From positions 1 to 48,449 of the IMG/VR virus record IMGVR_UViG_3300006737_007703: DNA of 48,449 nucleotides. One strand, written 5' to 3'. The stretch comes from a virus. Shown piece by piece: positions 3,654 to 36,692 of the stretch. The number at the start of each line of letters is the position of its first letter. Positions within the stretch are counted from its first letter, which is position 1. The position numbers and the translations under genes were made by a program. The notes beneath the pieces were generated by a model. It made no database searches and was not told the DNA's origin. It was given only the letters and a program-made list of their open reading frames with translations.

Positions 3654-4409
3654 ATGATTGACTGTGATAAAGAAACGTTGTTAATATCTGATGATAAAGC
3701 TTTCTATACCCTTGAGGGTGAAGGTGAATTTGTAGGTATGCCTTCGGTATTTTTTAGAATGGCAATGTGTAATTTAACTTGCGAAGGATTTGCTTCTGAA
3801 GACTCACCTCATGGTTGTGATTCTTTTGTTTCATGGTCTATTAAGAATAAGATGACTTTTAATGAAATATTTGAATATTTTGAAGAGCATCACTTAGTAG
3901 ATAAGTTAAAAGCTGGTGCTATTTTTAAGCTTACAGGTGGTGAACCTATGGTACAGCAAAAGCAATTGCTTAAATTTATAGAAGCTTTTATTAATAAGTA
4001 TGATTTTCACCCTATAATTGATTTTGAAACTAATGCTACTATTAAACCTGATGAAAAATGGGTAACTCACTATAGAGCTACCTTTACTACATCTCCTAAA
4101 TTAACTACTAATGGTGATCCGGAAAAGAGAACCTATAAGCCTGAAGTATTAAAGTGGCATAGAGATGTAGGATCCGGATTTAAATTTGTTATTAATGCTT
4201 CTGAGGATATAGATGAGATTTGGCGTAAGTATGTTGATGATGGTGAGATTAATATACCTAAAAGTAGGATTTGGTTTATGCCCTGTAGTGGGAGTAGAAA
4301 AGAGCATATAGAAAAAGCTCCTGCGGTAGCTGAATATGCGAAAGGTATGAATGTAAATTTCTCACCTCGTTTACATTTATGCATATGGGATATGGCATTA
4401 AAAGTCTAA
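3654..4409 (+). CDS. queE: QueE-like 7-carboxy-7-deazaguanine synthase (radical SAM)
   Basis: QueE is a radical-SAM enzyme that turns 6-carboxy-tetrahydropterin into 7-carboxy-7-deazaguanine (CDG), the third step of the pathway. Seen in 251 residues: FYTLEGEGEFVGMPSVFFR at 17-35, the QueE N-terminal signature; cluster Cys at 39, 43 and 55 (CNLTC, then CDSF); LTGGEP near 99-104, the SAM-binding GGE motif; and a conserved C-terminal segment ending RLHLCIWD. Odd: the usual Cx3Cx2C is stretched to Cx3C-x11-C by an insert of about nine residues. Some other QueE proteins also have expanded cluster motifs. No queC, queF or DpdA transglycosylase is visible here, so the end product is unknown. Confidence 0.88.
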   Translation: MIDCDKETLLISDDKAFYTLEGEGEFVGMPSVFFRMAMCNLTCEGFASEDSPHGCDSFVSWSIKNKMTFNEIFEYFEEHHLVDKLKAGAIFKLTGGEPMVQQKQLLKFIEAFINKYDFHPIIDFETNATIKPDEKWVTHYRATFTTSPKLTTNGDPEKRTYKPEVLKWHRDVGSGFKFVINASEDIDEIWRKYVDDGEINIPKSRIWFMPCSGSRKEHIEKAPAVAEYAKGMNVNFSPRLHLCIWDMALKV

Positions 4410-9188: not shown

Positions 9189-10321
9189 TTAAATGGCCAC
9201 TAATGGATAATGCGATCCCTTTGGATCAACGTACAGCTCTTTCAGACTTTATACTAAATGGTGATAAATTTTCACAAGGTAAATATGTTAGAGAGTTTGA
9301 AGAAGAGTGGTCAAAATGGCAAGGTTGTAAATATTCTGTTTTTGTAAACTCTGGATCATCTGCTAATTTTTTAGCGGTACACGCACTAAATAACTACGAT
9401 GAAACTAAAGGCTGGGTATCTCAAGCCTGTACCTGGTCTACTACAGTATCGCCTATAATATTATCTAAAAATAAATTAAGCTTATGTGATGTTAATTTAC
9501 CTAATTTAGATCCGGATCTCCATACCTTAGAATATATTTTTAATTTAAATAAACCTAAATACTTATTCTTAGCTCACTTACTAGGTTTTTGTGCTTTATC
9601 ACAAGAACTATTAGATCTTTGTAAAAAGTATAATGTCGAGCTACTTGAAGATTGCTGTGAATCTCATGGAACCACATATGATGGAGTAAAAATAGGTAAT
9701 TTCGGTAAAGTATCTACGTTTTCATTTTATTATGGTCATCACATGACTACCATTGAAGGGGGAATGGTATGCACAAATGATAAAGATATATATGAAAAAC
9801 TTTTATTGCTTAGATCTCATGGGTTATTAAGAGAACTGCCAGAGGAAAGTCAGCAAAAGTATAAGAAAGTAAATAAAAATTTTACCTTTATAACTCCTGG
9901 GTTTAATGTAAGATCGTGCGAATTAAATGCATACTTAGGTTTATTACAATTAAAAAATTTAGATAAACATAATAAAATTAGACAAGATAACTTTAATCAT
10001 TTTGCTAAAAATTTAGATAATAAAAAATATTTTAATAATTTTAAAGTAGAAGGTAACAGTAGTTTTTGTTTTCCTATTATTACTAAAAATAAAGATCAAA
10101 AAGATATATTATTAGAAAAATTAACTAAAGAGGGTATTGAAACCAGGCCAGTTATAGCTGGTAATCTTTACAACCATCCATTTATCGATGGAGTAGTTGA
10201 TAAGATAATGAATGTAGATGATAAAGCTAATTACGTTCATGAAAATGGCTTTTATGTAGGTAACAATCATAATATATCTATAACTGAAGTAGATTGGTTG
10301 CTTAATCTTTTAAATGAATAA
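9185..10321 (+). CDS. DegT-family PLP enzyme with His replacing Lys (ColD-like 3-dehydratase)
   Basis: 378 residues of the DegT/DnrJ/EryC1/StrS fold. Seen: FVNSGSSANFLAV at 53-65 (PLP phosphate loop), LLEDCCESHG near 153-162 (Asp to PLP nitrogen), and STFSFYYGHHMTTIEGGMV at 177-195. In aminotransferases of this family that last motif holds the PLP Lys; here H185 is at that place. Known exceptions with His are ColD (GDP-4-keto-6-deoxy-mannose 3-dehydratase) and the RfbH/E1 group, which remove the C3 hydroxyl. Length and the Fcl/ColC-like gene next door fit ColD. So it probably makes a 3,6-dideoxy sugar precursor rather than an amino sugar. It overlaps both neighbours by 4-8 bases. Confidence 0.85.
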   Translation: MIKWPLMDNAIPLDQRTALSDFILNGDKFSQGKYVREFEEEWSKWQGCKYSVFVNSGSSANFLAVHALNNYDETKGWVSQACTWSTTVSPIILSKNKLSLCDVNLPNLDPDLHTLEYIFNLNKPKYLFLAHLLGFCALSQELLDLCKKYNVELLEDCCESHGTTYDGVKIGNFGKVSTFSFYYGHHMTTIEGGMVCTNDKDIYEKLLLLRSHGLLRELPEESQQKYKKVNKNFTFITPGFNVRSCELNAYLGLLQLKNLDKHNKIRQDNFNHFAKNLDNKKYFNNFKVEGNSSFCFPIITKNKDQKDILLEKLTKEGIETRPVIAGNLYNHPFIDGVVDKIMNVDDKANYVHENGFYVGNNHNISITEVDWLLNLLNE

Positions 10322-11018
10322 ACTCGGTATAATACAGCCAGGTAGATTAGGTGACTTAATTATATGTCTACCTGCAGCAAAATATTTATCTGAAAAGGGC
10401 TACAAAGTATACTGGCCTATATTTGATAAGTATGTTAAAATGTTTGAAGAGGTAGTTGACTACGTTAACTTTTTACCGGTAAGTGATAATGTTTATACAT
10501 GTGTAAAAGAGTCGTATGAAGCTTTATCTGATAATAACGTAGAATTAATTAAAGATATAGCTGCTACCTTTCCTGATAGTACCTCAACGGAGATGTATGT
10601 AGCGCTTGGTGACGGTAAAGAGCAACCATTTGATTTATTTAAATATAACTTACTTAGTGTACCTATTGAAGAAAAATGGAACTTCAAAATTAATAGAAAT
10701 TATATTGAAGAAGAAAAACTTTATAATAAGTTAGTTAAAAATAAAAAATATGCTGTCGTTAATTTAAAACATTCAAGAGGTAAACTTAATTATAAGTTTG
10801 ATTTTAAAGATGGACAACTTATAGAAATGAATGAAAATTATAGTATATTTTATTGGTTAAAGATTTTAGAAGAAGCTACTACTATAGCTTTGGTTGAGAG
10901 TAGCATTTCAAATTTAGTAGAACAGCTTAACATTAATAATAAAAAAATATTATTTAAAAAAGAAGATAACCACTTTATGAAGTTACCGGTTATGAAGAAT
11001 GAATGGAAGATTATATGA
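10314..11018 (+). CDS. GT9-like (heptosyltransferase-type) GT-B protein
   Basis: 234 residues, starting KLGIIQPGRLGDLIICLP (3-20), the glycine-rich opening typical of ADP-heptose:LPS heptosyltransferases and relatives (GT9). A late ALVESSISNLVEQL segment sits where GT9 proteins bind the nucleotide. It is shorter than the usual 320-350 residues, so one of the two GT-B domains is reduced. Donor unknown; a link to the HldE-like enzymes at 18557-20318 is possible but unproven. The stop overlaps the next start (ATGA). Confidence 0.65.
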   Translation: MNKLGIIQPGRLGDLIICLPAAKYLSEKGYKVYWPIFDKYVKMFEEVVDYVNFLPVSDNVYTCVKESYEALSDNNVELIKDIAATFPDSTSTEMYVALGDGKEQPFDLFKYNLLSVPIEEKWNFKINRNYIEEEKLYNKLVKNKKYAVVNLKHSRGKLNYKFDFKDGQLIEMNENYSIFYWLKILEEATTIALVESSISNLVEQLNINNKKILFKKEDNHFMKLPVMKNEWKII

Positions 11019-11797
11019 AAAGAGTAGCGTTTACAATTATATTAAATGGTCATAGACATTTAGTTCATAAAAACTATTATGATACTATGAGTAAAAATTT
11101 TGATCTATGGGTAATAGTAGAAGGTTTATCTAATCCAGGTGGTTCAACCTCATGGTGTAATGAATTAGATTCTAAGTTTCATAATAATTTTATATCAAAT
11201 GACGGGACAAGTGAGTTTTTAGATAATAATAAAAAGGATAATGTAATTGTAGTTAGACCGGAAAATAGACCTTGGGATAGTAAAGATGAACAAGTAAATG
11301 CTGCTATTATTGAGATAAAAAAGCATTATGAAGAATGCTATCTATGGCAAATAGATATAGATGAGCAATGGTCTATAGATCAGTTACAAGAGTCTGAAGA
11401 ACATTTAGAGCAAAATAAAGGTAAAACTGGCTGTTTTCTTTGTAACTATTTTGTAGGTACTAATCAATTAGTTTTTGGTGAATGGGGTGAAGGTACTGGA
11501 GGACCTTATCGTAGACTTTGGAAATGGAAAGGTGAGAGTTTTAAAACTCATGAACCACCTCAACTTGATGGTAAAAATGGACCAGGATTTTTAATACCTG
11601 TTAGGTTTAATCATTATGCTTATTACTTCGAAGAAGATGTAAAGTTTAAAGAAGAATATTACGGTAATTATGATGGTTTATATGAAAGATGGCTTAAGGT
11701 TCAAGAAAATAGAGGTACTATACCGGTATCTGAATTATTAGGACCTAATTTAATGTGGAGTTTTACAAAAACTAATATAAAATATATAAATGGCTAA
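11015..11797 (+). CDS. Putative GT-A glycosyltransferase
   Basis: 260 residues from ATG 11015, chosen over ATG 11003 because it forms an ATGA overlap with the upstream stop and starts directly at the first strand (MKRVAFTIILNGHRH). LWQIDIDEQW near 108-117 provides a DxD-type metal site. A C-terminal FNHYAYYFEEDVKFKEEYYG segment is seen in other sugar transferases that use an aromatic/His acceptor site; this is inference. No signal peptide. Exact family not recognised. Confidence 0.65.
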   Translation: MKRVAFTIILNGHRHLVHKNYYDTMSKNFDLWVIVEGLSNPGGSTSWCNELDSKFHNNFISNDGTSEFLDNNKKDNVIVVRPENRPWDSKDEQVNAAIIEIKKHYEECYLWQIDIDEQWSIDQLQESEEHLEQNKGKTGCFLCNYFVGTNQLVFGEWGEGTGGPYRRLWKWKGESFKTHEPPQLDGKNGPGFLIPVRFNHYAYYFEEDVKFKEEYYGNYDGLYERWLKVQENRGTIPVSELLGPNLMWSFTKTNIKYING

Positions 11798-13396: not shown

Positions 13397-14114
13397 AATA
13401 ACTGTAGATGACCCGTTAGGTAGAATGATTCGTGATACTGTTCAAATTATCGGATTAAAAAATAATTTAGAAATAGGAGCATGGGATGGTTCGGGTGCTA
13501 CACAATGCTTTATAGAAGGTATGAGAGGGTTTGAAGAAAAATCTCTTAAAAGTATTGAAATAGATGAGGAGAGATTTTTACAATTAAAGGATAGAGTAAA
13601 AGAATATGATTGGATTGAATGTATACATGATTCATCTATAAGTCCTGATGTCTTACCTCCATTCGAATATATGTGGGACTCTATTCATTTTAAATGCCCA
13701 ATAGAAAAAATGAGTTATGATGAAAAGCAAGTTGAGAAGGCTGGGCTAAAAAGGTGGTATGATAGAGATAAAAAGTTAATGTCTATCTTTGAGGGTTATT
13801 TACACACTGATAAAGATTATTACGATTCAGTATTAATAGATGGGGGTGAATGGTGTGGTTATGATGAGTTTTTATTACTTAAAGATAGAACAGATGTTTT
13901 CTTTTTAGATGATTGTCATGTAGCTTATAAAACTAGTAAAGTATTTGATGTACTTAAAAATGATAATAATTGGGGATGTTTAATGAATTGTGTGCCCCCT
14001 CATCCTCGCGCAAGAAATGGATCTGCGGTATTTATAAGAAATGAAAGACATCAGCAATATTTGCAAAAAAGGGATTGGGTCGATACTCGTGATATTAATA
14101 ATATAAATGCATGA
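13389..14114 (+). CDS. Class I SAM methyltransferase-like protein
   Basis: 241 residues from ATG 13389; an upstream in-frame ATG at 13332 lies inside the previous gene and would add residues of no family character. LEIGAWDGSGATQCFIEGM near 25-43 is a SAM-binding motif I, SIEIDEERFLQL follows as motif II, and DSVLIDGG plus VFFLDDCH appear further on. It probably methylates a sugar or other small acceptor given its glycosyltransferase neighbours, but no acceptor can be read from the sequence. Overlaps are 8 bases on both sides. Confidence 0.7.
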   Translation: MAEITVDDPLGRMIRDTVQIIGLKNNLEIGAWDGSGATQCFIEGMRGFEEKSLKSIEIDEERFLQLKDRVKEYDWIECIHDSSISPDVLPPFEYMWDSIHFKCPIEKMSYDEKQVEKAGLKRWYDRDKKLMSIFEGYLHTDKDYYDSVLIDGGEWCGYDEFLLLKDRTDVFFLDDCHVAYKTSKVFDVLKNDNNWGCLMNCVPPHPRARNGSAVFIRNERHQQYLQKRDWVDTRDINNINA

Positions 14115-14877
14115 TCGTGAAGTCATAATTTACCAACCATGGGGTGGATTAGGGGATAATTTAGCACATACTCCTATACCTCGTTTATGTAGAGATTTAG
14201 GTTACAAATGCCTTTTAAGTAAAAAAAATAAATTTCGTAATAGTCAAATATACGAGTTATTATATAAAGATTTAGACTGTATAGATGGTACTACAGAAGA
14301 AATAAATGAAAGTTGGCAAAATGGTTATACGCAAATAAACAAACCAGGTTGGAACCATATAAGACATGTACAGCTAGGTTATGGGTTTAAAACAGCTCCT
14401 TACTACTATCCTATAATTAATTATCAACCTAAATTTATAAAAGAGTTGGAGGATGTAACTTTAGTGGACCTATCCGGAGATCATTGTTATACTTATTTTC
14501 CGCATCTTTATAATAGAGATAATCTTTTAAAAATATGTAATCGATTAGTAGAGGTTTATAAATTACAAAATTTACTTACTGTTGAAAAAAATAATATAGA
14601 TAATACAGATATAAAAATTACTAACGAAATATATAAAATAGATTCTCTTTTTAAATATTCAGATATTATTTATTCTTGTAAAAATTTTATTTGTATCGAT
14701 TCTGGACCAGGTAATCTAGCTTGCACTATAAAGAATCAATTTAAAACTAATACTAATATTTTTATTATTGGTATGTCACATCAACTACCTCCAAATAAGT
14801 ATGATACGTATAACTACGTAAATGCTAATTATATAACTTCTGATACGTATACAATAATAAAAAGTAATGAAAACTAG
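14107..14877 (+). CDS. GT-B glycosyltransferase-like protein (GT9-like)
   Basis: 256 residues, opening with VIIYQPWGGLGDNLAHTP (6-23), a glycine-rich GT-B N-terminal loop like that of GT9. Near the C-terminus, FICIDSGPGNLACTI corresponds to the donor-site D-S-G-P/SGPGNLA block of GT9 proteins. This makes it a better GT9 candidate than the gene at 10314, though still shorter than typical. Donor unknown. It overlaps neighbours by 8 and 11 bases. Confidence 0.62.
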   Translation: MHDREVIIYQPWGGLGDNLAHTPIPRLCRDLGYKCLLSKKNKFRNSQIYELLYKDLDCIDGTTEEINESWQNGYTQINKPGWNHIRHVQLGYGFKTAPYYYPIINYQPKFIKELEDVTLVDLSGDHCYTYFPHLYNRDNLLKICNRLVEVYKLQNLLTVEKNNIDNTDIKITNEIYKIDSLFKYSDIIYSCKNFICIDSGPGNLACTIKNQFKTNTNIFIIGMSHQLPPNKYDTYNYVNANYITSDTYTIIKSNEN

Positions 14878-15718: not shown

Positions 15719-16520
15719 ATTATTACAAAGCTTATGTGAAGTAAGCTTTTATAAAAAATTAGATAGCATAAAAATAGATCAATTAAAATCTATGAATCAA
15801 AATGTATTATCTATTGATGAAGTGTCTGTAACTGATATATCTAAATATAAAACTATATTTATATATGTTGATTTTATTCATGAATTTATGGATAAATTTG
15901 CTAATTACTTAGCAAAAGAAACTGTTATTATGACCCATAACGGTGATGTTAATATTAGTAATGAATATGTAAAATACTTAGATAATCCAAAAATTAAAAA
16001 ATGGTATTGTCAAAATCGAGCAATCCATCATAAAAAACTTTTTTCTATTCCGATTGGAATAGCTAACTCTCAATGGAATCACGGTAATCAAGAAAGATTA
16101 ATCAATAGCAAGATTCATAGTCAAAATAAAGAATATCTTGTATACAAAAATTTTGATACAGGTACTAATGAAAGTGAAAGAGGAATATGTAATATTATTA
16201 CAGGTAAAAACGGTATTCCTATGAGTAAAAAGATAGATATAGATACGTATTTAACTTATATAGCTAAAAGTAAGTTTGTTATATCTCCCCCGGGCAATGG
16301 ATTAGATTGTCACAGAATATGGGAAAGTTTATATCTTAAAACTATACCTATAGTACTTAAACATGAATGTTTTTCTCAATTCAAACATTTACCTATTCTA
16401 TTTGTAGAAAGATGGGAAGATATAACTATACCATTTTTAAGAGAGAAGGCCTTAGAAGAAAAAGATTGGGATATTAAAGAACTTACTTTAGACTTTTGGA
16501 GAAAAGAAATCCTTATCTAG
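15696..16520 (+). CDS. Exostosin/GT47-like glycosyltransferase
   Basis: 274 residues from ATG 15696; the earlier in-frame ATG at 15642 lies deep inside the previous gene and adds a non-homologous stretch. The C-terminal half has KSKFVISPPGNGLDCHRIWE followed by SLYLKTIPIVLKHECFS, the donor-binding pattern of exostosin-type GT-B enzymes (G-x-G/D-x-x-R-x-wE-x-l-x-x-G-x-iPvv). It is the last gene of the plus-strand operon and converges with the HAD gene, with 33 bases of coding overlap between the strands. Confidence 0.65.
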   Translation: MSTIVSGELLQSLCEVSFYKKLDSIKIDQLKSMNQNVLSIDEVSVTDISKYKTIFIYVDFIHEFMDKFANYLAKETVIMTHNGDVNISNEYVKYLDNPKIKKWYCQNRAIHHKKLFSIPIGIANSQWNHGNQERLINSKIHSQNKEYLVYKNFDTGTNESERGICNIITGKNGIPMSKKIDIDTYLTYIAKSKFVISPPGNGLDCHRIWESLYLKTIPIVLKHECFSQFKHLPILFVERWEDITIPFLREKALEEKDWDIKELTLDFWRKEILI

Positions 16521-16814
16521 GCAACCTTTATCATCTACAAAAATATCAGCGCCAGGTTTACCTAAAAATAAATCATGATATTTTAAGTTCCATGAATCAA
16601 GCTGCTCTTTAGTAAGGTTATAATATTTCGCGTACGCTTTTATAGGGTTATTATTAGTACTACCCATACCTCTAGCAGTTAACACGTATATTGTATGACC
16701 ATCTTCATATAAACTATTAACATAATCAATTCGCTCTTTTATAGGAGTACTATCTCTATAATCACTACCTTCTGTAACACATAGCGTGTTATCAACATCA
16801 AAACAATAAGTCAT
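16488..16814 (-). CDS. Small HAD-family phosphatase (capsule-biosynthesis type)
   Basis: 108 residues. YCFDVDNTLC at 3-12 gives the HAD nucleophile motif D-x-D-x-T (D6, D8); YVLTARGMG near 43-51 gives motif II Thr/Ser; LFLGKPGADIFVDDKG near 84-99 gives the Lys and the acidic motif IV. This small form is common in capsule and sugar-nucleotide clusters. Inference: it removes a phosphate from a sugar bisphosphate, the role GmhB plays in heptose synthesis, since kinase, isomerase and nucleotidyltransferase are in the same operon. Its ATG overlaps the transaldolase stop by one base. It is the last gene of the minus operon. Confidence 0.8.
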   Translation of the reverse strand: MTYCFDVDNTLCVTEGSDYRDSTPIKERIDYVNSLYEDGHTIYVLTARGMGSTNNNPIKAYAKYYNLTKEQLDSWNLKYHDLFLGKPGADIFVDDKGCLDKDFFSPKV

Positions 16815-17494
16815 TATATCCAGTTTTTAAAGTCATTAGTAAATTGCTCGATTGAAGCAGTTGTACCAGGGTGCGTAGAACTTTCTTTAACTACATTAAA
16901 ACCTGCAGTTACGATATGAGAACCAGAACTCCAAGCATCTGTAATATCTTCAGGTTTTCTAATACTACCAGAAATAATTTCGCAATTTAAATTATTCTCT
17001 TTAATAAATTCATTAGTTTCTTGAAGAGCAAAATGTACCGGTACTTTGCTATCTCTAGCTCTATTATAGAATAGAGAAACATATCTAGCACCAGCAGCTG
17101 CTCCGAGCATTAATTGAGCACTTGTATAACAACACGTACAATTAATATCAACTCCTATACCAGCTAATGATTCAATTACAGGAAGCTCATTCCACCCAAT
17201 AGGAATTTTAATATTTAAATTATCATAGTCGATATGTTTTTTCAAGCTAATTGCTTGTTGTTTAATCTCTTCTGGTTCAATTGCAAACACTTCAACACTA
17301 AAAGGAATTTCATTACCGGTAATATCACTCTTATCTTTCAAAAGGTTAGCAATTTTTTGCATATGTTCAATATAATCAGCTTTAGGCTCTTTTGACATAA
17401 GGGACGGGTTAGTAGTTACCCCGCTAATTATACCTCTATCGATAGATTCAGATATTTCGTCAATATTAGCTGTGTCAATAAATAATTCTCGCAT
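16814..17494 (-). CDS. talC: TalC/FSA-type transaldolase
   Basis: 226 residues starting MRELFIDTANIDEI. The start at 17494 is supported by a sigma70-like promoter 5 bases upstream; a longer in-frame version from 17530 would add a non-conserved basic leader. Seen: SGVTTNPSLM at 24-33, the Schiff-base Lys at K96 in LNIKIPIGW, and GAAAGARYVSLFYNRARD near 131-148. The family moves a dihydroxyacetone unit between sugar phosphates (transaldolase) or cleaves fructose-6-phosphate. Similar genes occur in cyanophages, where they bend host metabolism toward the pentose phosphate pathway. Here it sits in a sugar-nucleotide operon, so it may feed pentose or heptose phosphate to its neighbours. Confidence 0.88.
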   Translation of the reverse strand: MRELFIDTANIDEISESIDRGIISGVTTNPSLMSKEPKADYIEHMQKIANLLKDKSDITGNEIPFSVEVFAIEPEEIKQQAISLKKHIDYDNLNIKIPIGWNELPVIESLAGIGVDINCTCCYTSAQLMLGAAAGARYVSLFYNRARDSKVPVHFALQETNEFIKENNLNCEIISGSIRKPEDITDAWSSGSHIVTAGFNVVKESSTHPGTTASIEQFTNDFKNWI

Positions 17495-17499
17495 AATAT

Positions 17500-17527
17500 A
17501 TTTTATAATAAGTTTTTTAATTTTCAA
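17500..17527 (-). promoter_or_regulatory. Internal sigma70-like promoter before transaldolase
   Basis: Minus strand: TTGAAA (17522-17527), 16 bp, TAAAAT (17500-17505), then 5 bases to ATG 17494. It overlaps the 3' end of the cupin gene and would allow separate transcription of the last two genes. Confidence 0.65.
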
Positions 17528-17957
17528 CAAATTTATATGTTTTACCGTCTTCTACTATATGCGAATCATTATCATCATCTGTAGTACTTACCTCTATAAT
17601 AACAGTATCCTGTATAGCCATACGCATATGCATTAAACCAACAGGTATATGTATTACATCTCCTTCATTTAGAATAATTGATTTATTCTCTGCTCTCCCT
17701 ATTCTTAAACCTAATTTAAGTTGACCCTTATCGATATAATAAGATTCTTTTTTATGTACATGATACTCCATGCTACTTTGAGTCCCCGCTCTCATAAAAA
17801 TTTTCTTTATACTATAGCCATCTTGATCAAAAAGCGTCGACATATCACCCCAGTATTTTTCTTCAGCTTTAACTACTTGCTCTACGCTTGGTAGCTCTCT
17901 TATTCCATATTTGTTATCTTTGTCCATAATATTTTGTTGTTCCATGTTTTCTATCAA
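17517..17957 (-). CDS. Cupin-domain protein, mannose-6-phosphate-isomerase-like
   Basis: 146 residues. A single cupin barrel: EYHVHKKESYYIDKGQLKL near 75-93 holds the first metal-binding set (H-x-H-x4-E), and DVIHIPVGLMHMRM near 107-120 holds the second (His). IEVSTTDDDNDSH follows, as in type II phosphomannose isomerase cupin domains. It may isomerise a sugar phosphate or bind one; mannose-6-phosphate supply for the Gmd/fucose branch is one possibility. The true start may be a later Met (for example MDKDNKYG at 17927). It overlaps the AraD-like gene by 44 bases. Confidence 0.72.
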   Translation of the reverse strand: MIENMEQQNIMDKDNKYGIRELPSVEQVVKAEEKYWGDMSTLFDQDGYSIKKIFMRAGTQSSMEYHVHKKESYYIDKGQLKLGLRIGRAENKSIILNEGDVIHIPVGLMHMRMAIQDTVIIEVSTTDDDNDSHIVEDGKTYKFVEN

Positions 17958-18633
17958 AATGTTTATCTAATAAACACTTAGATAGTTTGTGATCACAAAC
18001 TTTTATCTTTTCAGTTAAGAAAGCTAATTTAGCTATCTCCTCTATTACTATAGCATTTTCTAATGCTTGTTGTTTTGTAGTACCCCAAACATACACCCCA
18101 TGGTTTGGTAACAAACACCCAGGCATTTTATTGTAATCTATTTTATTATCCTTAAAATAATTCACAATACTCAACCCTATATTTCTTTCGTAATTATTCT
18201 CTATTTCATTTTTGAGTAAATCGTAGACTATAGGTACATCACCGTAAAAATAGTCAGCATGAGTCGTACCGTAGCAGTTAATAGGTCTTCTAGCTTGTGC
18301 AAAAGCAGTGCAATATTGAGAATGGGTATGAATAATATAGTTTACCTCCTTAAAGCTTTTATATAGCTCGATATGAGTTGGAGTATCTACCGAGGGAGAT
18401 TTACCCCTTGCGGTAGTACCGGTAGTAATGGTTACTCTACTTAAGTTACCTACTTCAAGTTTATATACGTCTATACCCGAAGGCTTTATAATTACCTGAT
18501 TGTTAACTCTATCGATACCACTAGCATTACCCCACGTTAGCTTAACTAGACCCCTATTAACAATTTCTTGATTTAGTTGTATAACGTTCTGATATAATTG
18601 ATTTAAATAGTTCATAACTTGGAGGAGTTGCAC
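17914..18633 (-). CDS. L-ribulose-5-phosphate 4-epimerase-like (AraD/UlaF, class II aldolase fold)
   Basis: 239 residues, or 233 from Met at 18615. Family knowledge: AraD interconverts L-ribulose-5-phosphate and D-xylulose-5-phosphate using a zinc ion. Seen: LTWGNASG at 32-39 (phosphate site), YIIHTHSQY at 99-107 with two zinc His (H102, H104), GTTHADYFYGDVP at 122-134, LPNHGVYVWG at 175-184 (third zinc His, H178) and a C-terminal LLDKHFDRKHG segment ending YYGQR. The THADYFYG block and this C-terminus are characteristic of AraD rather than fuculose-phosphate aldolases. It lies between the cupin and kinase genes, overlapping both. It is probably the entry step from the pentose phosphate pool. 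Confidence 0.85.
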   Translation of the reverse strand: MQLLQVMNYLNQLYQNVIQLNQEIVNRGLVKLTWGNASGIDRVNNQVIIKPSGIDVYKLEVGNLSRVTITTGTTARGKSPSVDTPTHIELYKSFKEVNYIIHTHSQYCTAFAQARRPINCYGTTHADYFYGDVPIVYDLLKNEIENNYERNIGLSIVNYFKDNKIDYNKMPGCLLPNHGVYVWGTTKQQALENAIVIEEIAKLAFLTEKIKVCDHKLSKCLLDKHFDRKHGTTKYYGQR

Positions 18634-19456
18634 CTTTTGTTTCTGTTGCTAAGCTAGCCCATATATTACAATAATCTAAAGCTTTCAAGGAATTATCTAA
18701 ACTAACTAAAGATGCCATAGCTGTAAAGCTATCCCCCGCACCGCAAGTATCAACAACTTTTGCCTGTCTTGGTGGATAAATTATGCCGTTATATTTACAG
18801 CCTCTGCTACCTAAAGTAGTAATACTTTCTGATCTCAAGTTATAAAATTGCTCTTCATCTTCATTTAAAATAAATAATGAGCAATTTTCGAATTTTTTTA
18901 ATTTAAGGTCTTTCTTTCCACCCCAATCAGAAAGCTGAGTATTTACTATACAAGGCTTCTTTTTACTTCTACAAAGCTTAATTGTAGAAATAGTTAAATT
19001 TTCAGATAAAAAACCTCCTCTATAATCACTTAGAATAACCGAATCATATTCATCAATTATTCTTACTAATTCACTTAAAATTCTATTTTCATCATCTTTA
19101 CTTAAAACTAAAATACTTCCACGATTTACCTGAAGATGCTTATAGCTATTGCCCTTGCGGCTTACGTAAAATCTACTTTTTATATTATGCTGTCTATCTA
19201 GATTAAAGTATTTTACGTTATTTTCTTTTAATGTGTCCGCTATAGTAGAATCATTAAATGCAGTAAAGAAGCAAACCTCCCGCTCTAAAGCTCTTAAGTT
19301 CATTACAAGATTTCCTGCTCCCCCAAGCTGCTTTTTTTTAGAAACATATTCAGCCTTGAGAGTTGGTGACTCTAGTGAAAGACCAACTGCTCTCGTATAC
19401 AAATATTCATCAGAGATTAAATCTCCTATTACTAAAACTTTTTTACGATTTAACAT
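18557..19456 (-). CDS. PfkB/HldE-type sugar-phosphate kinase
   Basis: 299 residues of the ribokinase fold, closest by eye to the N-terminal kinase domain of HldE (RfaE), which phosphorylates C1 of D-glycero-D-manno-heptose 7-phosphate. Seen: KVLVIGDLISDEYLYTR at 5-21, KKKQLGGAGNLVMNLRAL near 41-58 (substrate GG motif) and VVDTCGAGDSFTAMASL near 239-255 with the catalytic Asp and the anion hole. Several HldE positions are changed: the R-I-S-PEAP block reads LSLESP. A different substrate, such as a pentose 5-phosphate, is therefore possible. The nucleotidyltransferase half of HldE is encoded in the upstream gene, overlapping this one by 14 bases. Confidence 0.85.
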   Translation of the reverse strand: MLNRKKVLVIGDLISDEYLYTRAVGLSLESPTLKAEYVSKKKQLGGAGNLVMNLRALEREVCFFTAFNDSTIADTLKENNVKYFNLDRQHNIKSRFYVSRKGNSYKHLQVNRGSILVLSKDDENRILSELVRIIDEYDSVILSDYRGGFLSENLTISTIKLCRSKKKPCIVNTQLSDWGGKKDLKLKKFENCSLFILNEDEEQFYNLRSESITTLGSRGCKYNGIIYPPRQAKVVDTCGAGDSFTAMASLVSLDNSLKALDYCNIWASLATETKGATPPSYELFKSIISERYTTKSRNC

Positions 19457-20318
19457 TTTCTCTAACCTTTTCTATAACTTTAGTTGTGGAGTATGTAACT
19501 TTATCAAATAAAGGAGCGACTTTAATTTGAATATGATCTGGAATATTATCTCTTTTTCTTATCTCTTCTGCTGTAAACTCACCACCTTTAACAACTATAT
19601 CTGGATTAATATCATTTATTATATCTTCAGTTTTAATATTATCAAAAATTACTACCTCATCTACTACAGATAAGGAAGAAAGAATATTTTTTCTATCGCT
19701 TTCATTAGTTACTGGTCTTTCTGGACCTTTTAATTCTTTAGTAGCCCTATCTGAATTTATACCAACAACTAATTTGTCTCCTAAACTCTTAGCAAAATTT
19801 AAAACTTCAATATGACCTAAATGTAACAAGTCAAAAATACCATTAGTAAAAACTACCGTTTCAGGCTTATGATCTGATATTTTTTCAACTCGTTTTACAT
19901 GTCTTCCTTCACCAAAAGGTGTATCAAGCCACTGCTCTAAAATTTCCTTAGCATTTCTTGTAGTAGATATCCAACTACCTAAACACAATACATTAGAATT
20001 ATTATGCTCTCTACATTTTGGAGCAGAATCTAAATTATGAACTAATGCCGCTCTTACATTTTTAAATCTATTAGCTGCTATACTCATTCCTACCCCTGTT
20101 CCGCAAATAAGAATGCCCTTTTCTATGTCTCCGTTATGTACTATAGAACTAAGTTGATTCGCGTAATCAACATAATCTACGCTATCAACATCACTATAAG
20201 GCCCTATATCGATAGGATTATAACCTGCCTCTTTGAGTATACTTTTCAACTCACGCTTTAACACTACACCGTTATGATCACTAGCTAAAACTATATTTTT
20301 GTCTATCGTTTTCAACAC
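19443..20318 (-). CDS. RpiB-type isomerase fused to HldE-type nucleotidyltransferase
   Basis: 291 residues in two domains. Residues 1-145 match ribose-5-phosphate isomerase B / LacAB: LASDHNG at 11-17 and GILICGTGVGMSIAAN at 68-83 with catalytic C72. Residues 150-291 match the HldE C-terminal nucleotidyltransferase: FTNGIFDLLHLGHIEVL at 157-173 with HxGH at 166-169, VVGINSD at 184-190, DIVVKGGEFT at 240-249 and a YSTTK near the end. I know of no standard enzyme with this pair; it joins ketose-aldose isomerisation and sugar-1-phosphate activation in one chain. Start: GTG 20318, or TTG 20315, which lies exactly 6 bases after the -10 box. First gene of the operon. Confidence 0.9.
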   Translation of the reverse strand: MLKTIDKNIVLASDHNGVVLKRELKSILKEAGYNPIDIGPYSDVDSVDYVDYANQLSSIVHNGDIEKGILICGTGVGMSIAANRFKNVRAALVHNLDSAPKCREHNNSNVLCLGSWISTTRNAKEILEQWLDTPFGEGRHVKRVEKISDHKPETVVFTNGIFDLLHLGHIEVLNFAKSLGDKLVVGINSDRATKELKGPERPVTNESDRKNILSSLSVVDEVVIFDNIKTEDIINDINPDIVVKGGEFTAEEIRKRDNIPDHIQIKVAPLFDKVTYSTTKVIEKVRENVKS

Positions 20319-24254: not shown

Positions 24255-24617
24255 ATGAATTTTTTTCAATTACAAAATAAATTATTTTACTCTAAAAAAG
24301 ATAATGCTGATTATTTAGATGCGGAAGGTGAACAAGCTTTTGTACCTTTCTTGTTTAATCGATGGCTTTCGTTTTATGATAAAAGTATGTCGATTTTTAC
24401 TAATGAAACTTTAAATAAATTTAGTACTATATTTGAAGATAAGCAGAGAGTGTATAGGCTATACTACTATCTTATTCCTAGGCTTAAGTGGAAAAAGATA
24501 TCCTATATTAAGAAAGTTAAGAAAGAAAAAGATGAAGATCTTAATTTAGAAATAATGGCTAAAAATAAAAATATATCAGTACGAGAACTTAAACAGTATA
24601 TTGAAGATTATGAGTAA
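24255..24617 (+). CDS. gp62-like DNA polymerase clamp-loader small subunit (candidate)
   Basis: 120 residues. FVPFLFNRWLSFYDKSMSIF near 30-49 followed by NETLNKFSTIF resembles the conserved core of short gp62-like clamp-loader subunits in marine T4-like phages (the PFLiNrxLSyy-type block), and YYYLIPRLKWKKISYIKK near 71-88 resembles their basic C-terminal block. In T4, gp62 with gp44 loads the gp45 sliding clamp. gp44, gp45 and the polymerase are not in this window. If it is not gp62, it is a conserved small basic phage protein. Confidence 0.5.
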   Translation: MNFFQLQNKLFYSKKDNADYLDAEGEQAFVPFLFNRWLSFYDKSMSIFTNETLNKFSTIFEDKQRVYRLYYYLIPRLKWKKISYIKKVKKEKDEDLNLEIMAKNKNISVRELKQYIEDYE

Positions 24618-34394: not shown

Positions 34395-35255
34395 ATGAAT
34401 ATAATAATACTAGGCAAAGGTTATGTTGGTAATCACCTGTTTAATACTCTAAGTGAGCACTCCGGTAGATATGGAGAGCGTCCTAACGTCCAAATTTTCT
34501 CAAAAGAAGAATTAGATTATACAGATGAAACTTCTTTAATGGAAGAAATTAACGTAATAGATGATACTTACATTATAAACTGCTCCGGCTTTACTGGTAG
34601 ACCTAATGTAGATGAAGGTGAAAACAAGAAAGAAGAATGCTGGAAATATAATGTACAGGTACCTCTTAATTTAAATAAGGTTTGTAATGAGACGGGTGCA
34701 GAGATTATTCATATTACTTCTGGTTGTATTTATACAGGGTATGAGAAAGAATGGGAAGAAGATGATACTCCTAATTTTGGAATTTATAGTAACGAAGCCT
34801 CTTTTTATTCTAAAAGTAAACATGCTTTCGAAACGCTAAGCGATACAGGTTTGCATTTGAGAATAAGAATGCCTTTTTGCGATACAATGCATGAACGGTC
34901 AGTGTTAACTAAAATATACAATTATGATAATTTAGTTGATACAATAAATTCTAAAACTTATATACCTGAACTTTGTAATTTTATACAACATTATATTAAA
35001 GAAGGTTACAAGGGTTATGAAACTATTCATTTTGTAAACAAGGAGCCTATATCAACAAAAGAAATAGTAGAAAAAATGAAAGCGGCTGGTATTGAAAATC
35101 CTAACTGGAAATGGAAAGAAATGGACCAATTAGGAATGAAAGCTAACAGATCAAATTGCATACTAGATACTACTAGACTAGAGCAACAATATAATTTTAA
35201 TATTAGTTCTGAGTATACTGCATTAGATAGAGCCCTTGAAAAAATGACTTCCTAG
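34395..35255 (+). CDS. NRS/ER-like 3,5-epimerase/4-reductase (RmlD-related)
   Basis: 286 residues. LGKGYVG at 6-12 is the NADPH loop; NCSGFTGRPNVDEGENKK at 62-79, HITSGCIYTGYE near 106-117, DDTPNFG at 123-129 and FYSKSKH with Y138 and K142 follow. From memory, the GRPNVD, SGCIY, EDDTPNF and LRIRMP blocks are those of plant and giant-virus UDP-rhamnose epimerase/reductase (UER/NRS-ER) more than bacterial RmlD. That enzyme turns NDP-4-keto-6-deoxyglucose into NDP-L-rhamnose in one protein, needing only a 4,6-dehydratase, which is encoded at 35712. It starts one base after the previous stop. Confidence 0.8.
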   Translation: MNIIILGKGYVGNHLFNTLSEHSGRYGERPNVQIFSKEELDYTDETSLMEEINVIDDTYIINCSGFTGRPNVDEGENKKEECWKYNVQVPLNLNKVCNETGAEIIHITSGCIYTGYEKEWEEDDTPNFGIYSNEASFYSKSKHAFETLSDTGLHLRIRMPFCDTMHERSVLTKIYNYDNLVDTINSKTYIPELCNFIQHYIKEGYKGYETIHFVNKEPISTKEIVEKMKAAGIENPNWKWKEMDQLGMKANRSNCILDTTRLEQQYNFNISSEYTALDRALEKMTS

Positions 35256-35263
35256 ATTAATAT
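35236..35263 (+). promoter_or_regulatory. sigma70-like promoter inside the rhamnose cassette
   Basis: TTGAAA (35236-35241), 16 bp, TAATAT (35258-35263), 5 bases to ATG 35269. It overlaps the end of the NRS/ER-like gene. Confidence 0.6.
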
Positions 35264-35268
35264 ATTAT

Positions 35269-35715
35269 ATGCACAAAGAAGGTTTATTGGGTTTTACCGC
35301 AGGTAATTTTGATTTATTACACCCGGGATATATTAGATGCTTTAGAGAGGCTAAGCGTCATTGTGATAAGTTTATAGTTTTTTTGCAGAAAGATCCCTCC
35401 TTGCATAGAAAGAGTAAATATAAACCAGTTATATCTCTCTACAATCGTTATGAAGCGTTAATGGCTATAAAATATATTGACGATGTCTATACATATCAAA
35501 CTGAAGAAGAGTTAGTTAATCTAATTAAATTCTGGAAACCTGATATTAGAATACTGGGCGAAGATTATATTGAAAAGGAATCTTTTACAGGAGATGATTT
35601 ACCCCCTAAAGTAATTTATACTACACGGTCGCATGAATGGTCGACCACTAAATTAAAAGATCTTATTACGTTACAAACAATTAAACAAAATCCAGATATA
35701 ATAAAGAAAAAATGA
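35269..35715 (+). CDS. Cytidylyltransferase-like nucleotidyltransferase
   Basis: 148 residues. GFTAGNFDLLHPGYIRCFRE at 8-27 is the nucleotidyltransferase opening with HPGY in place of HxGH; the second His is Tyr. KSKYKPVISLYNRYEALMAI near 47-66, DIRILGEDYIEK near 91-102 and a late STTKLKD complete the glycerol-3-phosphate cytidylyltransferase/HldE-C pattern. It may activate a sugar phosphate, but loss of the second motif His raises doubt about full activity. It lies between the two rhamnose enzymes. Cofactor and substrate unknown. Confidence 0.78.
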   Translation: MHKEGLLGFTAGNFDLLHPGYIRCFREAKRHCDKFIVFLQKDPSLHRKSKYKPVISLYNRYEALMAIKYIDDVYTYQTEEELVNLIKFWKPDIRILGEDYIEKESFTGDDLPPKVIYTTRSHEWSTTKLKDLITLQTIKQNPDIIKKK

Positions 35716-36692
35716 GTACGTACTTAGTTACTGGGGGTTGTGGATTTATAGGCTCTTATGTAGTAAAGGAGCTTTTAAAACTATCTGATACAGAGAAAAT
35801 TTATCAGATAGATAAGATGGGTATAGGCTCTAGTAAAGAAAATTTAATAACTGATGATCCAAGGGTACAAAATTACTGTTTTGATTTAGCTAATACTAAT
35901 CATTGGAAGTTAAACATGTCTAACTCTATACAATTTATAGATAGAGACGTTGATTATGTTTTACACTTAGCAGCTGAATCACATGTAGATAGATCTATTG
36001 AAGGTCCCTTAGCATTTATTGATAGTAATGTTAGAGGTACAGCAAATGTTCTAGAATTTGTAAAAGAGATGAAATCGAGAATGGTGCATGTCTCAACTGA
36101 TGAGGTATACGGTCATCTTACTGAAGACGATTCACCATTTTTAGAAACTCACCCGCTACAGCCTCGTTCTCCATATGCAGCTTCTAAAGCTAGCTCTGAT
36201 CTAGTAGTTCAATCATATATACATACATACGGTATTAACGCTTCAATTACAAGGTGCTGTAATAATTACGGGCCCCGACAGCATGAAGAAAAACTAATAC
36301 CTACTGTTATTAAATCGATTATAGAAGGTAAAAATATTCCTGTTTATGGGAAGGGAGATAATATTCGCGAATGGATCCATGCAGAAGATCATGCTAAAGC
36401 TATTATAGAAATAGCACATACTGTTGAAGATGTAAAAGAAATATACAATATTGAAGGATCTAGATCAGTGCGTAATATTGATTTAGTTAATGAAATAATT
36501 TCAACGCTTATAGAGAAATATCCTCAGTATAGTAGAGAAGGTGAATATATTGAATTCGTAAAGGATAGATTAGGTCATGATTTTAGATACGATTTAGATA
36601 CTATTCATCCTAAGCTACAAAGCGTAGTCGATCAAAAAAAATTCAACTTAGAGAAGACTGTAGAATATTATGTTAAAGGCTATCAAGCTTGA
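35712..36692 (+). CDS. rmlB: dTDP/UDP-glucose 4,6-dehydratase (RmlB-type)
   Basis: 326 residues. YLVTGGCGFIGSYVVKEL at 4-21, LHLAAESHVDRSIEGP at 84-99, HVSTDEVYG at 126-134 with T129, D130 and E131 (catalytic), SPYAASKASSDL at 153-164 with Y155 and K159, and RCCNNYGPRQHEEKLIP near 180-196. These match RmlB closely. It makes NDP-4-keto-6-deoxyglucose, the substrate for the NRS/ER-like protein. No RmlA or RmlC is visible, so the NDP-glucose would come from the host. It overlaps the previous gene by 4 bases. Confidence 0.93.
   Translation: MSTYLVTGGCGFIGSYVVKELLKLSDTEKIYQIDKMGIGSSKENLITDDPRVQNYCFDLANTNHWKLNMSNSIQFIDRDVDYVLHLAAESHVDRSIEGPLAFIDSNVRGTANVLEFVKEMKSRMVHVSTDEVYGHLTEDDSPFLETHPLQPRSPYAASKASSDLVVQSYIHTYGINASITRCCNNYGPRQHEEKLIPTVIKSIIEGKNIPVYGKGDNIREWIHAEDHAKAIIEIAHTVEDVKEIYNIEGSRSVRNIDLVNEIISTLIEKYPQYSREGEYIEFVKDRLGHDFRYDLDTIHPKLQSVVDQKKFNLEKTVEYYVKGYQA

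Follow-up and report, generated by a model that had tools for sequence, protein, structure and literature searches.

The stretch of DNA analysed here (the window) is the virus record IMGVR_UViG_3300006737_007703, which comprises 48449 bases and combines T4-like genes with many glycan genes. Protein profile scans identified a gp15-type tail sheath stabiliser, a helicase and PhoH; the best relatives of gp15 are 25-29% identical and belong mostly to cyanophages. Inside a large glycosyltransferase region of this phage lies an operon of six minus-strand genes (16488-20318), each overlapping or abutting its neighbour, so that they look co-transcribed. In order of transcription they encode a fusion of RpiB with a nucleotidyltransferase, an HldE_N-like PfkB kinase, AraD, a cupin, TalC and a small HAD protein. 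All enzyme families named in an earlier note on this DNA were confirmed here by profile matches; RpiB and the nucleotidyltransferase, listed there separately, are one fused protein. The same note had proposed that the operon makes a nucleotide sugar by the logic of HldE, with a C1 kinase, a distal phosphatase and a nucleotidyltransferase, and is entered via pentose-phosphate enzymes. Our results support this, and the operon very probably serves to make a single nucleotide-activated sugar that ends up in a surface glycan.

The fusion protein (19443-20318, 291 residues) consists of an RpiB domain, a ketose/aldose phosphate isomerase (residues 1-150), and an HldE_C/RfaE2-type nucleotidyltransferase domain (residues 150-291), with Pfam matches to LacAB_rpiB (6e-49) and CTP_transf_like (6e-20). 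Its RpiB domain exceeds the TIGR01120 rpiB equivalog cut-off (152.4 vs 138.65 bits), and the catalytic Cys and His as well as the phosphate Arg/His are invariant across 14 relatives. The two domains were fused in all 34 loci in which both were detected, a number that includes overlapping copies of one contig. The nucleotidyltransferase domain stays well below the curated HldE cut-off (143.4 vs 181.5 bits). This applies even more to the kinase (18557-19456; TIGR02198, 2e-30, 106 vs 345 bits), a putative sugar-1-kinase whose AlphaFold model (predicted local distance difference test score, pLDDT, 92.9) has its best PDB match in HldA of B. cenocepacia (E 1e-22, template modelling score up to 0.79), followed by ribokinases. 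The lid motif of the window kinase is GLSLESPT in place of RISPEAPVPV. The motif R..P(E/D).P, also found in B. cenocepacia HldA, occurred in 80/80 kinases without linked RpiB and in 0/25 with linked RpiB, 24 of which carry G.S[LA]E[ST]PT instead. As the RpiB-linked kinases form one group, this lid motif is a marker of a subfamily and no proof of another substrate.

The AraD-type L-ribulose-5-phosphate 4-epimerase is encoded by an open reading frame (ORF) at 17914-18633 with a likely start ATG at 18615. It scores above the cut-off of the AraD subfamily PRK08193 (265 vs 257 bits, 5e-79), while that of TIGR00760 is not reached. The protein shares about 40% identity with AraD of E. coli and retains the Zn ligands and the equivalents of D76, D120, H218 and Y229, with roles as in the E. 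coli enzyme; the Zn ligands, D120 and Y229 are invariant in 15 aligned relatives. A plain aldolase, an activity that the earlier note named as a possible refutation of its view, was rejected for this protein, since the epimerase residues are kept. The phosphate-site residue S75 is replaced by Val. The resulting PSVD is invariant among the AraD proteins of the operon, and PSSD is found in three other AraD proteins, in E. coli AraD and in a separate AraD of an archaeon-labelled metagenome-assembled genome (MAG) described below. We regard PSVD as no more than a hint of a new substrate.

The TalC-type transaldolase (ORF 16814-17530, likely start ATG 17494) matches TAL_FSA (2e-38). K108, the lysine that forms the Schiff base, and E80, a glutamate typical of transaldolases, are invariant in 13 relatives. 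The cupin (17517-17957) matches Cupin_1 (3e-7) and MannoseP_isomer (7e-6) and contains the invariant residues H66, E71 and H110. Its model (pLDDT 87.3) resembles D-lyxose isomerases, phosphoglucose isomerases of the cupin type and the cupin of CapF, and no one reaction stands out among them; it is a candidate sugar-phosphate isomerase or epimerase. The last gene (16488-16814) encodes an EcbF/BcbF-like HAD phosphatase, the candidate distal phosphatase, with matches to TIGR01689 (2e-10) and phrog_1238 (3e-25) and with 9iqw and 1xpj as closest solved structures. The phrog_1238 label 'phosphoheptose isomerase' is misleading, as this family is a HAD phosphatase. Cyanophage records (e.g. L008, 7716-8397) carry this label on the HAD phosphatase and 'cysteine dioxygenase' on the cupin.

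Contig scans with the fusion, the kinase and AraD, followed by a profile search over the loci, yielded 29 viral records including the window. RpiB-nucleotidyltransferase, kinase, cupin and TalC were present in all of them and AraD in 28. The order from the fusion to TalC was kept in 28/29 records, and in 21 of these HAD follows directly. Altogether, HAD lies beside TalC in 22/29 records; one record is cut by the contig end, and in six none was found within the stretch checked. A chance assembly of the gene set is ruled out by this conserved order. Seven of the records contain psbA/psbD-type genes above the cut-off and are therefore cyanophages.

Outside viruses, the fusion was detected in seven cellular records by a scan of genome contigs and in an eighth (L224) by a phylum search. 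These copies lie among genes for surface polysaccharides, in a single cell of Prochlorococcus, in Patescibacteria and in further MAGs. Their gene order is usually altered, and their location points to a surface polysaccharide as the use of the sugar. In Prochlorococcus the full operon is flanked by polysaccharide genes, among them a sugar transferase and a ParA/AAA_31-type protein whose tail is rich in tyrosine and which is taken for a Wzc-like kinase. Besides the operon TalC, this cell has a second gene resembling a transaldolase, in an ORF of 356 aa; it is probably the host transaldolase. At the edge of the contig bearing the Prochlorococcus operon there is also a GmhA-like gene (G034, C9:31-483, 65 bits). 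Both Patescibacteria (L121, L224) possess all operon parts, and in both the cupin and HAD are fused (L121, 10073-11338; L224, 5288-6418). The archaeon-labelled MAG (L120) has the operon without AraD, and a 305-bit AraD ends another of its contigs, together with surface-glycan-type genes. The AraD of the Longimicrobiales (L122) and Acidobacteria (L123) copies belongs to the PRK06557 type (scan of L122), and both contigs end after the cupin. In L124 the fusion lies near the contig end, and for L126 the profile search found no operon part besides it. A GT9-family gene adjoins the fusion or the kinase in L120, L121, L124, L126 and L224 (Pfam match tested for L121 only).

In the tree of the fusion protein, Prochlorococcus falls inside the phage clade (support 98/98 at the fork holding it), so that the operon has probably passed between phages and this host. 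The RpiB-nucleotidyltransferase profile located it in 1/350 genomes of the Prochlorococcus family, in 2/380 and 1/395 genomes of two bacterial phyla and in 1/87 genomes of the phylum of the archaeon-labelled MAG, every count including the starting genome. With so few genomes per group carrying a match, the operon is rare in cells.

TalC is a common metabolic gene of cyanophages, with matches in 501 phage records, most of them from cyanophages. The pentose-phosphate genes might thus be ordinary carbon-flow genes beside an HldE-like cassette, having no part in sugar synthesis. This is quite improbable considering the constant fusion of RpiB to the nucleotidyltransferase, the occurrence of the gene set in bacterial polysaccharide clusters, too, and the dissimilarity of the operon TalC to cyanophage TalC (about 32% identity).

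The cyanophages P-SSM2, S-SSM7, S-CAM1, P-TIM68 and Sf-FS3 contain a sister cassette with homologous nucleotidyltransferase, kinase, HAD and cupin; alignments and profile matches recovered all four core genes in the operon. In contrast to the operon, no RpiB, AraD or TalC accompanies this cassette, its kinases show the R..P(E/D).P lid motif, and an HldD-like epimerase is often present. For the epimerases next to the cassettes of P-SSM2 and P-TIM68, HldD is the best match (210 and 185 bits). An HldD-like gene was found within 6 kb of 34/58 distinct kinases with a plain nucleotidyltransferase, whereas none was detected near the 25 distinct RpiB-linked kinases, the best viral TIGR02197 score being 151.6 of the 274.6 bits needed. 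In the viral record L017, a second, cyanophage-type cassette of nucleotidyltransferase, kinase and cupin (9812-11316) directly follows the RpiB-AraD operon.

With the ADP-heptose pathway (GmhA, HldE, GmhB, HldD) the operon shares the chain of C1 kinase, distal phosphatase and nucleotidyltransferase. It differs by the lack of an adjoining GmhA or HldD, by the fusion of RpiB to the nucleotidyltransferase and by the additional AraD and TalC. A nucleoside diphosphate (NDP)-heptose of changed stereochemistry could nevertheless be the product. TalC would then make sedoheptulose-7-phosphate, AraD would act in a C4 epimerisation or an accessory role, RpiB or the cupin would give aldoheptose-7-phosphate, and kinase, HAD and nucleotidyltransferase would convert this to ADP-heptose for the GT9 neighbour. 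In both sequence and fold, kinase and nucleotidyltransferase come closest to enzymes of heptose synthesis, GT9-family genes adjoin the fusion or the kinase in five cellular loci, and the sister cassette has its HldD-like epimerase and, among the relatives of P-TIM68, a transketolase as a would-be source of sedoheptulose-7-phosphate. HldD is not required by every heptose route. Still, we consider a heptose rather unlikely: RpiB and AraD have kept their C5-phosphate features, no HldD-like gene was found near any RpiB-linked kinase, the lid motif is lost, and in L017 both cassettes stand side by side, so that their products probably differ. Furthermore, a C7 product is disfavoured because RpiB and the cupin would be redundant isomerases and AraD would have to act on a seven-carbon ketose.

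In the earlier note RpiB was thought to have taken the place of GmhA. No match to GmhA (TIGR00441) was obtained in the 43 viral records, partial ones, that carry either type of cassette, and a substitute for GmhA is therefore needed. RpiB need not be this substitute, as the cupin is another candidate: it is shared with the cyanophage cassettes that bear HldD, and its fold is nearest to CapF and sugar isomerases.

We favour, with somewhat less than even confidence, a route in which a C5 aldose phosphate is lengthened by TalC and finally gives an (A)DP-octose. The gene set, its conservation, the catalytic residues and the folds were established here, and we infer all substrates, the nucleotide attached, how the reactions follow one another and what the sugar is used for. 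AraD would convert D-xylulose-5-phosphate to L-ribulose-5-phosphate and, together with RpiB, yield a C5 aldose 5-phosphate; C5 phosphates are favoured at this step because RpiB exceeds its equivalog cut-off and AraD has kept its catalytic residues. TalC would then move the three-carbon dihydroxyacetone unit from fructose-6-phosphate or sedoheptulose-7-phosphate onto this aldose, and the resulting octulose 8-phosphate would be isomerised to octose 8-phosphate by the cupin. The kinase would phosphorylate C1 and HAD would remove the phosphate at the distal end, after which the nucleotide, probably AMP, would be attached by the HldE_C-like domain.

Transaldolase, isomerase, kinase, phosphatase and nucleotidyltransferase are likewise clustered in the lincosamide octose pathway (LmbR, LmbN, LmbP, LmbK, LmbO) (PMC12945683, PMC5854111). 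The acceptor of the transaldolase LmbR is ribose 5-phosphate and its donor fructose 6-phosphate or sedoheptulose 7-phosphate (PMC5854111); the lmb cluster adds the isomerase, kinase, phosphatase and nucleotidyltransferase (PMC12945683). Unlike the operon, this pathway has no reported AraD or RpiB, and it makes an antibiotic, not a surface glycan. A C8 product is favoured because every gene gets a step and because of this precedent. The octose route is further supported by TalC and cupin in every viral record and the second transaldolase-like gene of Prochlorococcus, as well as by the distinct kinase lid motif, the absence of HldD-like neighbours, the five GT9 neighbours and the location in polysaccharide clusters. 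Each of the tests on lid motif, HldD and GT9 was devised once the loci on which it draws had been inspected. That phages, Prochlorococcus and Patescibacteria share an operon with RpiB-nucleotidyltransferase fusion and transaldolase step, which supplies a nucleotide-activated octose for surface glycans, is possible, and we propose it with yet more reserve.

A pentose, e.g. NDP-L-arabinose, had been suggested in the earlier note. L-ribulose-5-phosphate formed by AraD from D-xylulose-5-phosphate would in this case be converted to L-arabinose-5-phosphate by RpiB with LacAB-type stereochemistry, followed by C1 kinase, HAD and nucleotidyltransferase, and TalC would merely supply pentose phosphate. 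With O5 carrying a phosphate at the kinase step, the arabinose ring must be a furanose. The complete catalytic residues of AraD, the RpiB score and the divergence of kinase and nucleotidyltransferase from HldE are in line with NDP-L-arabinofuranose, and so is the second-contig AraD of the archaeon-labelled MAG among surface-glycan-type genes. However, the universal TalC and cupin would be left unused, for which reason a C5 product is disfavoured; AraD is missing from one viral record (L016), and the GT9 neighbours suggest a larger sugar. We therefore keep the pentose as a rival, albeit an unlikely one.

The phage RB69, which the earlier note took as a precedent with an HldE-like transferase, is a T4-like phage that likewise has an isomerase and a proposed kinase/nucleotidyltransferase, in its case for a pentose (PMC6024577). 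What has been proposed for RB69 is an isomerase with a SIS domain (KdsD/GutQ-like) together with an RmlA/aminoglycoside-phosphotransferase-like protein (PMC6024577, PMC8056088); RpiB or HldE families are not involved, and the sugar goes to DNA. With these different families and the cellular copies in polysaccharide clusters, arabinosylation of DNA as in RB69 is unsupported. No DNA sugar transferase was detected among the window proteins scanned, which were part of all window proteins.

Several points weigh against the octose. The record of L016 lacks AraD in the operon and over its whole 37.6 kb, the operon parts being otherwise present. Four psbA-bearing records of more than 100 kb have no TalC besides that of the operon, which could thus also fill the metabolic role that TalC usually has in cyanophages. 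In the genomes of Longimicrobiales and Acidobacteria, the only TalC is a standard one located elsewhere. Octoses are rare in surface glycans, and known GT9 enzymes use ADP-heptose. The likeness to the lmb cluster is one of gene families, with the cupin presumed to be the isomerase; the lincosamide isomerase, kinase and nucleotidyltransferase presumably belong to other families than those of the operon. The octose route was conceived after seeing the data, and the weights given to the three products are a matter of judgement.

Among the neighbouring genes, the Family A protein (14107-14877, plus strand, no Pfam match) is not a member of the operon, but its homologues are located just 3' of it in many viral copies and in Prochlorococcus. 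It is possibly a diverged GT9-like glycosyltransferase; an assignment to GT9 was rejected, as the profile comparison was too weak (3.4% probability). The SDR protein at 24601 has its best match in GalE. A second HldE_C/TagD-like nucleotidyltransferase gene (35269-35715) lies between RmlD-like and RmlB-like genes, and this region (34395-36692) perhaps represents a second nucleotide-sugar route. QueD-like and QueE-like genes (2181-2876 and 3654-4409), both below the curated cut-offs, are possible pieces of a 7-deazaguanine pathway.

The three products considered differ in mass and gene requirements, so the question can be tested with six small proteins. Two phage annotations that mislead are corrected here, 'phosphoheptose isomerase' to HAD phosphatase and 'cysteine dioxygenase' to cupin. 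If our interpretation is true, cyanophages would carry a nucleotide-sugar pathway of which we found no description in open-licence PMC text, and which would be common to Prochlorococcus and bacteria with tiny genomes.

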